Positions 30,933-38,127 of a stretch of 64,000 bases of DNA are shown piece by piece. The translations under genes were made by a program, and so were the position numbers. The notes below the pieces were generated by a model, which ran no database searches, was not told the DNA's origin, and saw only the letters and a list, made by a program, of their open reading frames with translations. This DNA is from Rariglobus sp. (GTDB lineage Bacteria; Verrucomicrobiota; Verrucomicrobiia; Opitutales; Opitutaceae). How positions within the stretch are numbered: position 1 is the first letter of the stretch; every line of letters begins with the position of its first letter. Location of the stretch: NCBI GenBank assembly GCA_029266495.1, contig JAQSWS010000030.1, positions 56,041 to 120,040 on the forward strand. The letters are read 5' to 3'.

Positions 30933-31940
30933 TCAGAAGCTGACGCTCAGGGTCAGGCCGAGGCCGGCGTTGGTGGTCTTGTAGCCGTAGTCGACGGGGG
31001 AGTCGCCTTGGGGGTTGCGCCAGTCGTAGCTGGTGAAGGCGCGGGCGGTGGCCCAAGGAGTGAAGTTGTAGCTAACGCTGACTCCGACCGAGCCGACGAG
31101 ATCTTCGCGGTTAACATCGAAAAAACCGGCTTCCTGGTAATGCAGGTAATCGGAATAGGTGAGGCGGGCGTAGGGGCCGAACACCCAGCGGTCACGCAGG
31201 TAGTAATAGCCGGCATCGATGGAGTAATCGACCTTGTCGTTACGGTCTTCCCGGTAATCGAGGAGGCCACCGGGCGTGTCGGAATCGGTGATTACGTAGC
31301 TGATGCCGCCGCCGAAGCTGAGGATGTGATCGCGACCCAGGCTGACGAGCTTGCGCACGGAGACGGAGGGGGTGACGGACTTGTAGGTGAGGTTGTAGCT
31401 GGGCGGACCTTCGAGGCTGTAAACCGCGGTGGCGGTGAGCCCGGCGGTGAATTCCCAGTTGTTGCCGCAGCGGACACGCAGGGCGAGCGGGATGCTGTAG
31501 GCGTCGAAGTCGAGATCTTCACGGGTTTCGTCGCCGGTGCCCAAGGCGTGGTTGTAATGTTGATACACGAGGCTGGCGGTGGGGGTGATCAAGGCCTCGC
31601 CGACCGTGAAGCTGTTGAAATCCGCACGCGTCAGGAGCGTCTGGGCGACGATGACGGATTCGACCTCGTCGGACGGCTGGAGAAAGACGTTGGACGTGTA
31701 ATAGGCCTGCACGTCGTAGGCGAACGTGAGTTTGAATGGCAGCTTGCGGGTTTCGGCGATGCGCTGGGTGCCGCCGTCGAGGTCGCCTTTTTCATCCTTG
31801 GTGGTGGCGGACGGGGCGGTGGGAGCGGGAGGGGGCGTGCCCTGTTGGACGCGGTCGATGATGACTTCGCTGGAGGACTGGGCGAGGAGTGTGCCGGCTG
31901 AAGTGGTGCCGAGCAAGGTGAGGAGAAGAATGCGTTTCAT
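30933..31940 (-). CDS. Outer-membrane beta-barrel protein
   Basis: 335 residues with a signal peptide (MKRILLLTLLGTTSAGTLLAQ). A Pro/Thr-rich linker leads into alternating amphipathic strands (LTFAYDVQAYYTSNVFLQPS, TPTASLVYQHYNHAL, YSIDAGYYYLRDRWVFGPYARLTYSDY). The last residue is a Phe after LTLSVS, the outer-membrane assembly signal. Not a TonB receptor: no plug. It is transcribed 39 bp after the FecR-domain gene and is probably its operon partner. Confidence 0.88.
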   Translation of the reverse strand: MKRILLLTLLGTTSAGTLLAQSSSEVIIDRVQQGTPPPAPTAPSATTKDEKGDLDGGTQRIAETRKLPFKLTFAYDVQAYYTSNVFLQPSDEVESVIVAQTLLTRADFNSFTVGEALITPTASLVYQHYNHALGTGDETREDLDFDAYSIPLALRVRCGNNWEFTAGLTATAVYSLEGPPSYNLTYKSVTPSVSVRKLVSLGRDHILSFGGGISYVITDSDTPGGLLDYREDRNDKVDYSIDAGYYYLRDRWVFGPYARLTYSDYLHYQEAGFFDVNREDLVGSVGVSVSYNFTPWATARAFTSYDWRNPQGDSPVDYGYKTTNAGLGLTLSVSF

Positions 31941-31979
31941 GTGAGAGCTGAAGCGGAAAGGTCGGTGGGAAGGTTCTTG

Positions 31980-33722
31980 TTAGCGCGGAGGCGGGGGGCT
32001 GCCCAGGACGCCGATCTTCACGTGGCCGCCGGTGGCGTCGGCGTTTGTCCCGCGCACGCTGTCGCCGAAGTTGGCATTGGTGAGAACGGTCGTGTCGTAT
32101 TTCACGTTCGAAATGAAGTTCACGTAACCGACCTTGCTGGAGCCGAAGTTGGCCTTGCCCAGGGTGGAGTTGAGATCGACGTTGGTGCCCGCCTGAAACG
32201 TGATGTTGGTGAGGTTGATGGTGGCCGCTTCGATCAGGATGCTGCCCACGCCGCTGCCAAAGCGGGTGTTGTTAAGATCGATCAGATCGCTGGCGTGGAG
32301 GGAGACGAAGCCGGTGCGGTAGCTTTCGTTGTCGTAACCCGCCACAAAGGTGTCGTGCTCATAACCCGTGTTATCGATGATGAGCTTACGGGTTGCGCCC
32401 ACGTGCAGGCTGCTGCCTTCGGTGTGGAAGGCGATGTTGTAGACGGTGACTCCGCTGCTGTCGCCAATGCCGGGGAAGAAGAAGTTGGATCCGATCAGCG
32501 GATCGATGTTTTCGCGGATCTTGGGGAAATCGGTTTCGTTCAGGAGCTCCGCGGGTGGCGCATCGAGGAAATAATAGGCGTTAATGAGGGTGCGCAGGCC
32601 CACGGTGTCCGCGCCGAGGGCGGTGACATTGTTGTCTCCGAGGATGCCCAGATCCACGAGCAATGCGCGTTCCCCTTCATTCAAGCTGGCGTAAAGATCG
32701 ATCGACTTGACGAGATCCCGGGCGAATTTGCCGTCCTTGAGTTTTCCCTCGAGGGAAGGCGCATCCGGGAAGCCCACCTCGATGATTTCCGCAAAGGCGG
32801 CTTGTTGCGTTTCGTTGAGGGTCGCAACGAAGTCGGCAAAGGAATTGAAGCCCGGGAGGAGCTCCTCTTCGGTCATGGTTTCCGTCACGACTTCGGTAAT
32901 GGTTTCCGTGTCGAGGTCCTCGTTCGTCGTGGAGGGGATTGCGAGGAGCGCGAGCACGCGGTCCACCAAGGCCTGGAGTTCAGGCGAGAGGGTGATGCCG
33001 AGGCTTCTGGCGGCATCGAGGGCGTTCTGGAGTGCGGTCGGATCGAGTTCGATGCCGGCCTCGAGTGCGGTGGCGATCGCGGCGATGGTGGTTTCGGTCC
33101 AGTTTTGGGCGATGGCCTGATCGGCGGGCGGAAGCTCGCTGATGTTATTCACGCTCTGGGTGTCGCCGTTGGTCTTGGTGATCGAGAGCTGGCCGGGCGT
33201 GAGGACCGCGGTGCTGCCGTCGGTGAAGTTGATGGAGATCGAGCCGTGGGCGACCACGATGGTCTGAATGCCGGCGGGATTCATGCCGACGGTGAACGTG
33301 GTGCCGCGGGCGCCGGCGAGGCCTCGTGCGGTGCGAATGCTGTAGTCGTAGGTGACGCCTTCGGGTTTTTGCAGATCGGAGACGACGGCGCCCTGCTTGA
33401 GGTCGAGGACGGCCTGATGGGTGACGTTGGTCTCGGATGTGCGATTTTCGGAGATGCTTTCGAGGAGCAGCGTGGTGTTGGGCGTGACGATGGATTTGAC
33501 GCCGGGCATCGGGGTGAGGACGACGCGTCCGTCGGCACCGGTGACGATGCGGGTGCCGATGATCACGGTCTCGCCTTTGACGATGGGCCGCAGGGCGGCT
33601 TCATCGGGACGTTGCAGCGAGGCTTCTCCGCTTACGAAAATAACACGCACCGTTTGTGCGGGAAGGACCAGAGTCATCATGAGCGCCAGTCCGAAGGTCG
33701 CGAACAAGGTAGAAAGTCTCAT
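31980..33722 (-). CDS. FecR-domain extracytoplasmic protein
   Basis: 580 residues with a signal peptide (LSTLFATFGLALMMTLVLPAQ). The FecR domain occupies about 25-180, with VKGETVIIGTRIVTGADGRVVL, DLKQGAVVSDLQK, YSIRTARGLAGARGTTFTVG and VVAHGSISI. The middle is helical. The C-terminal 180 residues have a repeating beta-rich pattern with many Asn and Thr (IDLNNTRFGSG, TINLTNITFQAGTNVDLNS), like a beta-helix stalk. Such FecR proteins lack the cytoplasmic anti-sigma part of classical FecR. It pairs with the barrel gene downstream and is divergent from the CHASE2 cyclase gene. Confidence 0.85.
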   Translation of the reverse strand: MRLSTLFATFGLALMMTLVLPAQTVRVIFVSGEASLQRPDEAALRPIVKGETVIIGTRIVTGADGRVVLTPMPGVKSIVTPNTTLLLESISENRTSETNVTHQAVLDLKQGAVVSDLQKPEGVTYDYSIRTARGLAGARGTTFTVGMNPAGIQTIVVAHGSISINFTDGSTAVLTPGQLSITKTNGDTQSVNNISELPPADQAIAQNWTETTIAAIATALEAGIELDPTALQNALDAARSLGITLSPELQALVDRVLALLAIPSTTNEDLDTETITEVVTETMTEEELLPGFNSFADFVATLNETQQAAFAEIIEVGFPDAPSLEGKLKDGKFARDLVKSIDLYASLNEGERALLVDLGILGDNNVTALGADTVGLRTLINAYYFLDAPPAELLNETDFPKIRENIDPLIGSNFFFPGIGDSSGVTVYNIAFHTEGSSLHVGATRKLIIDNTGYEHDTFVAGYDNESYRTGFVSLHASDLIDLNNTRFGSGVGSILIEAATINLTNITFQAGTNVDLNSTLGKANFGSSKVGYVNFISNVKYDTTVLTNANFGDSVRGTNADATGGHVKIGVLGSPPPPR

Positions 33723-33782
33723 AAGAAATATGAGGCATTGAATCTTCTAATTTGGGGCTTAATACAAGGGGTTTTCCATTAG

Positions 33783-36038
33783 GTGAAATTCCCGACCCCC
33801 GCTTTCCTGCAGAAAATACCGCCCACATGGAGAGCCCGGATCGGGGTGACGCTGGTGGTGGGGACGGCTCTGGGGTTGCTGGTGGAATGGGTGCCGCTGA
33901 AGCAGGTGGAGTGGCTGACGGAACGGTATCGGCTGCGTGCCAGGGAACGGTGGGCCCTGTTGCCGACGACGGGAGACGTGCTGGTGCTGGCGATCGATGA
34001 AAAGGCGCTTGCGGTTCACAAGCAGTGGCCGTTTGCCCGCTCGGTCCACGGGCAATTGATGGAATGGTTGGGGCGGCACGAAAAGGTGAGGCCGGCGGTG
34101 ATGAGCTGGGACTTTGTATTCGGGGAGGAGACTTTCGATCCCAAGCTCGACCTCATGTTCGCGGCCCCGCTGGCGTCGACCGGTTATCCGATCGTGATGG
34201 GCGCGTTTGGCGATCCGGCTGCGCGCGGGCTGTTCTCCCAGGGCAAACCCGCTCCGCGCCTGGGCAAGACGCGTCCGCTGGACGTTCCTCCCGACGTCGT
34301 CCGGTCGCTGCCGGACGTATATGGACTCCAGATACCGATTGTTCCTTTGCTGGACGTGACGCGGTTTGCGTTGCTTGACGCACAGTCGGACGATGACGGA
34401 GTGATCCGGCGCCTGCCGATGGTCATACGTGTGGGTGACAAGCTGTTCCCGAGTCTGGTGCTCGGCACGCTCATGGCGTATTGGAGTGAAGAGGACGTGG
34501 TGGTGCGTCCCGGCGACGCGGTTGTGCTGGCCCCGGGCACCCCGCGCGAGCGCAGCATTCCCATCGATGCCGACGGCTATTACCATCTGAATTATCGTTA
34601 CGAACTGCGCGAGGCCGGCGTGACGGAAGGGATCGAGGCGATCTCGTATCAGGACATCTATGAGTCGCTGGCTTCCTGGGCGCCGTTCGAAGGTGATGTG
34701 GTGCCGTTGCCGGTGGCGGGCCGGATTCTCGTCGTGGGCCAGACCGCGACGGGATTGAGCGATATTGGTCCGAGTCCTTTGCGCAGCCAGAGCGGCAAGG
34801 TGCTGGCGCACATCAACGCCATTGAGAACATTCTGCGGGGCGATTATCTGGTGCACTGGCCGGTGTGGCCGGGGGTGTGCGTGGTGCTGGCGTTCGGGTT
34901 GTGGTCGGCCTGGCTGCTTGATCGTAAACGCGTGTGGTATTTTGCATCGATTGCCCTGTTCATGATTCTTTGCGTGGCGGCGGCCTGGCTGGCCTTGGTG
35001 GCTAAAAACATCATGATGCCGATGGCGGCCCCGCTGGTGGCGTTTACGTTGCAACAGACGGCGGTTGCGATGCTCAAAATCCGGGAGGAGCAGGCCCAGC
35101 GGGATCGTATCCGGCGGATGTTTGGCTCGTATGTGTCGCCGGAACTGGTGCGGCGCATGGTGGATGCGCGGGCCGAACCGCAGCTTGGCGGACACGAGGA
35201 CGAGATCACGGCCTTCTTCAGCGACATCCAGGGGTTTTCGGCGTTTTCGGAAATTTTGCCCGCCGCGGATCTCGTGCAGCTGCTCAACGAATATCTCGGC
35301 TCAATGACCGACATTCTGCAGGAGAGCGGCGGTGCGCTGGATAAATACATCGGTGACGCGGTTGTCGCGATGTTCGGCGGCCTGGTGCCATTGCCCGATC
35401 ATGCGCGGCGGGCGTGCGAGTCGGCCGCAAAAATGCAGCTGCGCCAGGGGGAGTTGCGCGAGAAATGGAAGGCCCAGGGAGACCGCTGGCCGGGGCTTGT
35501 CCATGCCATGCGCACGCGCATCGGCCTCAACTCAGGCCGGGTCGTGGTGGGCAACATGGGTTCGCACCACCGGTTTAATTATACGATGATGGGCGACGCG
35601 GTGAACCTCGCCGCGCGTTGCGAAAGCGGCGCGAAGACCTTCGGCGCCTACACGGTGGCGACCGGGACAACGGTATCGGCGGCGAAGGCGGCGGGATGCG
35701 AATGCGTGTTTCGCGCGCTTGATCGCATCGTGGTGAAGGGGCGTCGCGAGGCCGTGGAGATTTTCGAAATCGTGGGGCTTTCGCCCGCACACCTGCCGGA
35801 GGGCGCGGCGCGTTGCCTTGAATTGTTTGCGGAGGGGCGGGCTCATTATTTGAAACAGGAGTGGGACGCGGCGATCCGGTGCTTTGAGGCGGCGGCTCCG
35901 CTCGAGCCCTTGCAGCCGGAGCGCGACGAAGGCGTTGAGTCGAATCCCTCGCTCATCATGGGGGCTCGCTGCCGGATGTTGGGCGAGCATCCGCCGGGCG
36001 CCGGCTGGGACGGGGTTTTCAGGATGACCACCAAATGA
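33783..36038 (+). CDS. CHASE2-domain adenylate/guanylate cyclase
   Basis: 751 residues from GTG 33783. The first helix leads into a periplasmic CHASE2 domain (to about residue 320) with VLAIDEKALAVHKQWPFARSVHGQL and VMSWDFVFGE. Three transmembrane helices follow (about 345-425), then a class III cyclase catalytic domain: DRIRRMFGSYVSPELVRRM lead, FFSDIQGFSAFSE with the metal Asp, and YIGDAVVAMFGG with the second metal Asp. The C-terminal 60 residues are a short TPR-like tail. The FecR-like next gene begins in its stop (ATGA). The enzyme would make cAMP or cGMP in answer to an envelope signal. Confidence 0.92.
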   Translation: MKFPTPAFLQKIPPTWRARIGVTLVVGTALGLLVEWVPLKQVEWLTERYRLRARERWALLPTTGDVLVLAIDEKALAVHKQWPFARSVHGQLMEWLGRHEKVRPAVMSWDFVFGEETFDPKLDLMFAAPLASTGYPIVMGAFGDPAARGLFSQGKPAPRLGKTRPLDVPPDVVRSLPDVYGLQIPIVPLLDVTRFALLDAQSDDDGVIRRLPMVIRVGDKLFPSLVLGTLMAYWSEEDVVVRPGDAVVLAPGTPRERSIPIDADGYYHLNYRYELREAGVTEGIEAISYQDIYESLASWAPFEGDVVPLPVAGRILVVGQTATGLSDIGPSPLRSQSGKVLAHINAIENILRGDYLVHWPVWPGVCVVLAFGLWSAWLLDRKRVWYFASIALFMILCVAAAWLALVAKNIMMPMAAPLVAFTLQQTAVAMLKIREEQAQRDRIRRMFGSYVSPELVRRMVDARAEPQLGGHEDEITAFFSDIQGFSAFSEILPAADLVQLLNEYLGSMTDILQESGGALDKYIGDAVVAMFGGLVPLPDHARRACESAAKMQLRQGELREKWKAQGDRWPGLVHAMRTRIGLNSGRVVVGNMGSHHRFNYTMMGDAVNLAARCESGAKTFGAYTVATGTTVSAAKAAGCECVFRALDRIVVKGRREAVEIFEIVGLSPAHLPEGAARCLELFAEGRAHYLKQEWDAAIRCFEAAAPLEPLQPERDEGVESNPSLIMGARCRMLGEHPPGAGWDGVFRMTTK

Positions 36039-36781
36039 AATTCTTGCGATGGAGTGCTCTGACGCCGGTCGTTTTGCTGGCACTTGTTTTGATGGCGAGA
36101 CCGGCGGCGGGCGTGGAGCTGGGTCATGTCGAGGGCCGGGTATTGGCGCGCGTCGAGAGCGGCGCAAAACCGGAGCGCGTGCAATCCGGGCACCCGTTGT
36201 CACCGGGGGTTGCGTTGGTCACGGGCGATGCCTCGCGTTTTGAGATAGTCATGCTGGACGGCGGTTGCTGGAGGGTGGGGCGCCGTGCGCTGTTTGTTTT
36301 CACCGACCGCGGCGCGCGCCTTCTCGCGGGGACGGCTTTGGTGCGCGTGCCCCCGGAAACCGTGTGGCGGGTGGAGAGCCTGCGGAGCCAGATCGCGCTG
36401 CCTGCCGGAACATGGATGGTGCATGCGGTGGACAATCGCGGGCTGAAGGTCGTGTGCCTGGATTCCGCGGAGGATGTGCACGGGCTTGGTGAAGGCGCGA
36501 CTCCGCTGGAAACACCGGTGGCGCTGCGGCTGCGCCCGGGGGAGCTGGCATTTCTGCAGCCGGGCGGACGCAGTTTCAGTCCGGTCGTCACGGTTTTCCT
36601 GGAGGAACTGCTGGCGACGAGCCGGCTGGTGAACGGCTTTCCCGAGGAGTTTCCGGGGATGCGCAGGCTGTTGAACCAGGCGGTTGCTCAACGTGAGCGC
36701 CTCAAAACGTTGTCCAATGCCGTGGTGGTGGGAGCGCCGGACGCGGGTGGTTTTCAGATCGCGGTGCCGGCGCAAAAATAA
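36035..36781 (+). CDS. FecR-like secreted protein coupled to the cyclase
   Basis: 248 residues with signal peptide ([18 protein letters not shown]). The first part ([46 protein letters not shown]) matches the start of a FecR domain; the [27 protein letters not shown] stretch is the second half. It overlaps the cyclase stop by 4 bp (ATGA), so it is presumably the CHASE2 partner, perhaps a periplasmic regulator. Its role is inferred only from coupling. Confidence 0.8.
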
Positions 36782-36801: not shown

Positions 36802-38127
36802 ATGCTGCCGATCCTTAAGATCAGTGATAACCGTCGTTTCCTCGTCACCGCCGGGGGCGCGCCCTTCTTTTACCTTGGTGACACGGCCTGGGAGTTGTTT
36901 CACCGGCTCGATCGCGAAGAGGCGGCGTGGTATCTGGAGAACCGCGCGGCCAAGGGCTTTAACGTCATCCAGGCCGTGGCGCTGGCCGAACTGGACGGAT
37001 TGAACACGCCGAATGCCTATGGTGCGTTGCCGTTGCACGATTTCGATCCGGCGCGGCCCAACGAGGCGTATTTTGAGCACGTGGACTGGGTGATCGCGAA
37101 GGCGGAGTCGCTGGGCATGCATGTGGCGCTGCTGCCCACGTGGGGCGACAAGTGGAACAAGCGCTGGGGCGTGGGGCCCGAGGTGTTCACGCCCGAAAAT
37201 GCGGAGGTGTTTGGCGAATGGCTGGGGCGTCGCTATCGCCAGAGTGCGATTATCTGGGTGCTGGGCGGAGATCGTGCGCCGGATAATGAGACGCACTTTG
37301 CAATTATCCGTGCCATGGGCGCGGGACTGCGGCGCGGCGATGGTGGAGCGCACCTGATCACCTTCCACCCTTGGGGCGGGACGGGATCGGCGGAGTGGTT
37401 TCACGGAGAGAGGTTCATCGATTTCAACATGCGGCAGAACGGGCACGAGCCGACGCATGCCCGCTATGCGAAGACGCGGGTCGATTATGACCGCACGCCA
37501 GTCGTGCCGGTCATCGATTCGGAGCCGCTTTATGAGGATCATCCGCTCTCTTTCGCCGCGGCCGACCATGGATATTCGATCGCGGCGGACGTGCGGCGGA
37601 CATTTTATTGGGACGTGTTCGCGGGTGCCTTCGGGCATGCCTACGGGCATCATTCGGTGTGGCAGTTTTTCGCCGACGGGCGGGCGCCGGTCAACGGACC
37701 GATCATGTCGTGGCGGGAGGCGCTTGAGCAGCCGGGCGCGGGCCAGATGATTCATGGTCGCCGGCTCATCGAGTCTCGTCCGATGCTCACGCGCGTGCCT
37801 GATGACGATCTGCTTGTGCCGGCAAATCCGCCGGCGATGGTGCCGGGTGCCGGACGGTATCGTTTCGCGGGGACGCGAGATGCGGAGGGCCGTTACGCGA
37901 TGATTTATGCGCCGGCGGGACGGGCCTTTTCAGCCCGGATGAACCGGCTTGCGGGACCGCGGGTGAAGGCGTGGTGGTTTGATCCGCGCACGGGTGTGTC
38001 GGCAGCGGCGGGCGAATTCGCGAACGAGGGCGAGGTTGCGTTCATGCCACCGACTCCGGGCGAGGATCTCGATTGGGTGCTCGTCCTTGACCAGGTTTCG
38101 CAGGGTTACGGCGCGCCGGGAAAATAG
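36802..38127 (+). CDS. DUF4038-type glycoside hydrolase (GH140 apiosidase-like)
   Basis: 441 residues without a signal peptide. The TIM-barrel lead is [42 protein letters not shown], which is the DUF4038 signature. [11 protein letters not shown] and [11 protein letters not shown] carry the Asp and Glu expected as the catalytic pair, and a small C-terminal beta domain ([16 protein letters not shown]...) is the putative collagen-binding domain that accompanies it. Family members release apiose from rhamnogalacturonan II side chains. It starts 20 bp after the FecR-like gene and could be read from that operon. Rhamnose genes at 45 kb fit pectin use. Confidence 0.87.

Follow-up and report, generated by a model that had tools for sequence, protein, structure and literature searches.

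The kind of system analysed here, in which a CHASE2 receptor is encoded together with FecR-domain and outer-membrane proteins, is already known: related pieces have been published for Campylobacterota, Sinorhizobium and Burkholderia, and the idea is less new than an earlier, sequence-only reading of the locus had implied (PMC9239204, PMC13001267, PMC5498481, PMC5192318). The signals to which CHASE2 domains respond are for the most part not known (PMC5192318). In Campylobacterota the adenylate cyclases have a CHASE2 domain, and their genes are mostly grouped with those for a phosphodiesterase, a TPR protein and an outer-membrane protein with a FecR domain (PMC9239204). In S. meliloti the CHASE2 cyclases CyaK and CyaD1/D2 are reported to depend on the outer-membrane barrel NsrA for their response to a signal (PMC7529298, PMC13001267), and the FecR protein SMc02177, encoded near cyaD1, is not required for signal perception (PMC5498481). 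The Burkholderia BiofilmReg operon encodes a periplasmic LysM-FecR protein, a CHASE2 histidine kinase and a response regulator (PMC5192318), and in magnetotactic bacteria the secreted protein MtxA is encoded just before a CHASE2 cyclase (PMC4439547).

The window, by which we mean the whole stretch of 64,000 nucleotides of Rariglobus sp. DNA that was analysed, carries a divergent variant, and all four open reading frames described in the sequence-only reading were found in place. On the minus strand lie the genes for an outer-membrane beta-barrel (30933..31940; 335 aa, signal peptide, 12 predicted strands, C-terminal Phe) and for FecR1, a secreted FecR-domain protein (31980..33722; 580 aa, with a long variable C-terminal part). 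The plus strand encodes a CHASE2 class III nucleotide cyclase (33783..36038; 751 aa, GTG start) and FecR2, a secreted FecR-fold protein (36035..36781; 248 aa). The FecR1 and cyclase genes diverge from a gap of 60 bp (33723..33782), inside which both promoters presumably lie, and the cyclase stop overlaps the FecR2 ATG by 4 nt in an ATGA at 36035-36038, as had been noticed before. A pattern search of the divergent region across the genus found no CRP palindrome TGNGA-N6-TCNCA. In agreement with the claim that a sigma-factor gene is absent, Pfam detected no sigma domain when eight genes between 28 and 40 kb were searched. The flanking endonuclease and apiosidase-like glycoside hydrolase (window 36802-38127) genes were considered as members of the module and left out, since L058 and L062 are the only congeners that have them next to it.

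With the Campylobacterota cluster the window shares a CHASE2 class III cyclase encoded with a FecR-domain protein, proposed there as one pathway (PMC9239204), but it has a barrel and two FecR proteins in a divergent layout, in Opitutales (Verrucomicrobiota), where that cluster has a phosphodiesterase and a TPR protein; Pfam found neither among the window's four genes or the neighbours searched. The NsrA - CyaK/CyaD1/CyaD2 - Clr pathway of S. meliloti would be alike in having a barrel upstream of cAMP-making CHASE2 cyclases, and it has a FecR gene near cyaD1. Its output, however, is the Crp-type regulator Clr, which was not found in the window's genome, and its FecR is a Clr target. Throughout the genus sets the barrel gene is kept next to the CHASE2 cyclase, which the barrel may feed in the manner of NsrA. 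BiofilmReg is similar in that a periplasmic FecR protein is encoded beside a CHASE2 receptor, but its output is a histidine kinase with a response regulator and it has no barrel, whereas in the window CHASE2 is joined to a cyclase and Pfam found no LysM. The MtxA pair resembles the window in that a secreted protein is encoded next to a CHASE2 cyclase, but that protein was not described as FecR (PMC4439547). A periplasmic FecR fold and an outer-membrane barrel are also common to FecA-FecR-FecI, from which the window set differs in having a cyclase as its output and no sigma factor, plugged TonB receptor, DUF4880 or FecR_C.

The CHASE2 cyclase was borne out by Pfam, which matched CHASE2 (1.3e-32), then Guanylate_cyc (2.7e-20), and left a weak TPR trace at the C terminus. 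The closest solved relatives in a PDB search were mostly adenylate cyclases, e.g. CyaB and CyaC-type enzymes. When the domain was checked by alignment for missing substrate-binding residues, all catalytic residues were present: the metal Asp pair D481 and D525, the substrate pair K521/T601 and the transition-state pair N608/R612 are kept (alignment A4), and in a 21-sequence alignment D481, D525, K521, N608 and R612 are invariant and T601 nearly so. In class III cyclases Lys/Thr specifies ATP. The substrate pair therefore points to ATP, and cAMP would be expected rather than cGMP; of the output formerly given as "cAMP or cGMP", the first half is favoured and the second is not. Judged from these residues, the product is likely cAMP. 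Pfam found no Crp-type regulator in the genome, so that cAMP effects there may be post-translational, and the cNMP-binding proteins that it did find have no DNA-binding domain. Their cNMP-binding domains (C31:9191-9784, C68:13459-13713 and C47:5311-5538; L178, L179, L180) are carried by a two-cNMP-domain protein, a SulP-STAS transporter and an NDH2-type NADH dehydrogenase.

FecR1 is a FecR-domain protein as proposed (Pfam FecR 9.3e-7, above cut-off), while the beta-helix-like tail ascribed to it went unconfirmed, the PDB profile search giving no informative match. Its C-terminal part is long and fast-varying, and relatives reach about 1040 aa (alignment A2). FecR2 had no match in a Pfam search. 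Its AF2 model is confident (pLDDT 83), and in Foldseek the best solved relative of the model is PupR (6ovk), a FecR-type anti-sigma regulator, followed by another FecR-type anti-sigma, BDI_1681 (4m0h, 4m0n), with E values of 2e-4 to 9e-4 for these entries. The FecR2 profile also aligns to FecR1 (hhalign 57%, E 1e-4), and together the fold match and the profile alignment uphold the suggestion of a second FecR-like secreted protein. Direct reading of the sequences gave a signal-peptide-like start for both proteins and, with Pfam, indicated that the cytoplasmic anti-sigma part is missing from both. FecR is the sole Pfam domain of FecR1, without DUF4880 or FecR_C, and FecR2 has none, whereas a classical FecR elsewhere in the same genome (C103), which served as a control, has FecR, DUF4880 and FecR_C. 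The AF2 model of the barrel (pLDDT 75) has 12 long strands and resembles the barrels of BrkA (an autotransporter), OmpG and CymA in Foldseek; the terminal F is invariant in the barrel alignment A1. No plug was matched by Pfam in this protein, whose 335 aa and 12 strands compare with the 22 strands of a TonB-dependent receptor. DUF6850 was considered as its family and not used, as the Pfam match was weak and below cut-off.

Of 13 genomes of the genus, 11 have the same four-gene divergent set, which is complete in seven (the window, L058, L072, L062, L045, L056 and L077) and cut by contig ends in four (L073, L074, L094 and L096/L097). Compared with the window proteins, the cyclases of congeners are 64-71% identical, the barrels 46-66%, FecR1 47-60% and FecR2 46-64%. 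Across 56 genomes of the order searched with Pfam, FecR lies within 5 kb of at least 26 of the 65 CHASE2 matches over cut-off, vs about 0.6 expected from FecR density, and the FecR-positive loci span at least 13 genera. Over half of the CHASE2 matches, including two of the three CHASE2 cyclases encoded in the window's own genome, have no FecR neighbour among the FecR matches listed. For class III cyclase matches without CHASE2 the count was 0 of 58, again among the FecR matches listed; the difference has a Fisher p of 3e-9, with loci that are not fully independent. The families are thus not scattered, and the conservation of the set in the genus with the enrichment elsewhere is well beyond chance. 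Three other Opitutales genera have a co-directional cyclase-FecR-barrel set (L070, L060 and L047).

When the genomes of 84,980 species were scanned, FecR was found within 4.5 kb of 29 of the 80 best cyclase relatives, and FecR domain matches at these 80 loci numbered 42 in near flanks vs 1 in far flanks, many of the loci being related and hence not independent. By their record titles these loci belong to Verrucomicrobiota, Neomarinimicrobiota, Nitrospinaceae, Bacteriovoracia, Bacteroidetes/Ignavibacteria, Acidobacteria, Nitrospirae, Deltaproteobacteria, spirochaetes and Alphaproteobacteria. Fifteen FecR proteins beside non-Opitutales cyclases were checked by Pfam and all 15 were above cut-off. 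FecR with a barrel or barrel-like gene occurs in Bacteriovorax (L116), in a divergent layout as in the window; a barrel-like gene is part of the same set in Halobacteriovorax (L114) and Nitrospinaceae (L130) and at L120, L127, L150, L122 and L136, several of them with TPRs. Groups with this combination include Ignavibacteria/Bacteroidetes and one spirochaete. Outside Opitutales these are putative barrels, with weak Pfam support in L116 only and called elsewhere from C-terminal signatures. Other CHASE2-FecR pairs have no obvious barrel alongside (e.g. L131, L133 and L174).

We consider it probable that the four genes make up one trans-envelope receptor that converts an outside cue into cAMP without a sigma factor. 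The proposal that the set is an envelope-to-second-messenger sensing unit is thereby kept as the leading hypothesis, on the grounds that the set is conserved, the families are linked and the catalytic residues are intact. Gene content and order, the FecR-like folds, the statistical linkage and the sets of cyclase, FecR and barrel or barrel-like genes in other Opitutales genera and in further groups argue for it as well, and NsrA in S. meliloti is a precedent. Membrane location, a shared transcript, binding order, direction of effect and product are what we infer, as follows. The barrel would sit in the outer membrane with FecR1 as its secreted partner, periplasmic or at the surface, while FecR2, presumably co-transcribed with the cyclase, would dock on the CHASE2 domain in the periplasm. 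The barrel, FecR1 or both would sense a cue at the outer membrane and shift the FecR-CHASE2 contact, and this change would alter the geometry of the cyclase dimer and thereby the cAMP output. In this genome the cAMP would then be received by cNMP-binding proteins that are not a classical Crp. Against the receptor reading stand the facts that gene linkage is not contact and that the barrel is small and ordinary; the many CHASE2 matches with no FecR neighbour, the kinship among the loci counted and the absence of DNA-binding domains from the cNMP-binding proteins found also weigh against it, and the strongest caution is the dispensability of SMc02177 in S. meliloti.

That same observation is the starting point for a different account, which we think unlikely, namely that the FecR proteins and the barrel are outputs or co-regulated surface proteins, targets of cAMP control and not a sensor. 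The S. meliloti gene smc02177 is a Clr target besides being dispensable for perception (PMC5498481), and the long, fast-varying C-terminal part of FecR1 is what a surface protein might have. However, the FecR2 gene overlaps the cyclase gene and stays with it across the genus, and CHASE2 kinases are paired with FecR too (PMC5192318). Neither a canonical CRP site in the shared intergenic region nor a Crp-type regulator in this genome was found. We regard it as rather improbable that the locus holds two separate units around a common divergent promoter region, one a surface system of barrel and FecR1 and the other a sensor of cyclase and FecR2, with FecR2 alone relevant to the cyclase. The CHASE2-FecR pairs with no obvious barrel beside them (L131, L133, L174) and the fact that FecR2 is the overlapping gene fit this arrangement, but the divergent pairing is retained across the genus, and in L070, L060 and L047 the FecR and barrel genes lie on the same strand as the cyclase, either after it or on its flanks. 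The FecR domain, and an ECF sigma gene beside the barrel of the Bacteriovorax relative (L116), might point to a FecA-FecR-FecI iron-type system in disguise whose sigma factor is encoded far away. This is very improbable, and the domain content largely refutes it: the barrel is 12-stranded and without a plug, DUF4880 and FecR_C, both present in the classical FecR of this genome, are missing from the two FecR proteins, and no sigma gene was found among the neighbouring genes searched.

Compared with the published systems, two things are new here: a divergent four-gene variant that has two FecR proteins, and a FecR-CHASE2 partnership measured across phyla. In the literature searched we found no paper on FecR as a general CHASE2 partner and no description of such a system in Verrucomicrobia. 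More tentatively, and with somewhat less than even confidence, we suggest that partnering CHASE2 receptors in the periplasm is a general role of FecR-fold proteins across diderms, in a sigma-independent branch of FecR signalling. Barrel, FecR and CHASE2 would together span the envelope without a break and switch cAMP (or kinase) output, and the window variant would have two FecR proteins, one per membrane. If true, FecR would no longer be an anti-sigma module only but a relay of general use in the periplasm, and scattered observations in rhizobia, Campylobacterota, Burkholderia and possibly magnetotactic bacteria would be joined. A conserved protein partner would make CHASE2 sensing concretely testable, as FecR binding and gating of the enzyme.

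Several other loci were noted on the way. The genus has a second conserved CHASE2 cyclase, which is without FecR and is faced by a conserved gene (L041:6368-7300, L043:11150-12022, L040:11090-11929, L004:4471-5304), which looks HD-type by eye, the single member tested having no Pfam match. At the third CHASE2 cyclase of the window's genome a small secreted protein gene comes next, with a short overlap and a weak SH3_3 match (L005:5178-5708); it is perhaps another type of periplasmic partner. FecR-TPR proteins beside CHASE2 cyclases at L174 and L162 may be of the MtxA type; when MtxA was considered as a relative of the L174 protein, a PDB search gave only a TPR match (YbgF), and this was left as a lead. 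A cNMP-binding GGDEF-EAL protein in Nitrospinaceae (L130:6699-8816) is encoded beside FecR and a TPR protein whose C terminus is barrel-like, and a CHASE2 cyclase is encoded divergently; the arrangement suggests a link from cAMP to c-di-GMP. In Bacteriovorax, the ECF sigma gene (L116:3904-4479) lies next to the genes for FecR and the TPR-barrel, which are opposite a CHASE2 cyclase, and this locus may connect the sigma-type with the cyclase-type form of FecR signalling. The C-terminal half of the FecR protein there (L116:6126-8312) weakly matches barrel families, and FecR and barrel may be fused in this protein.
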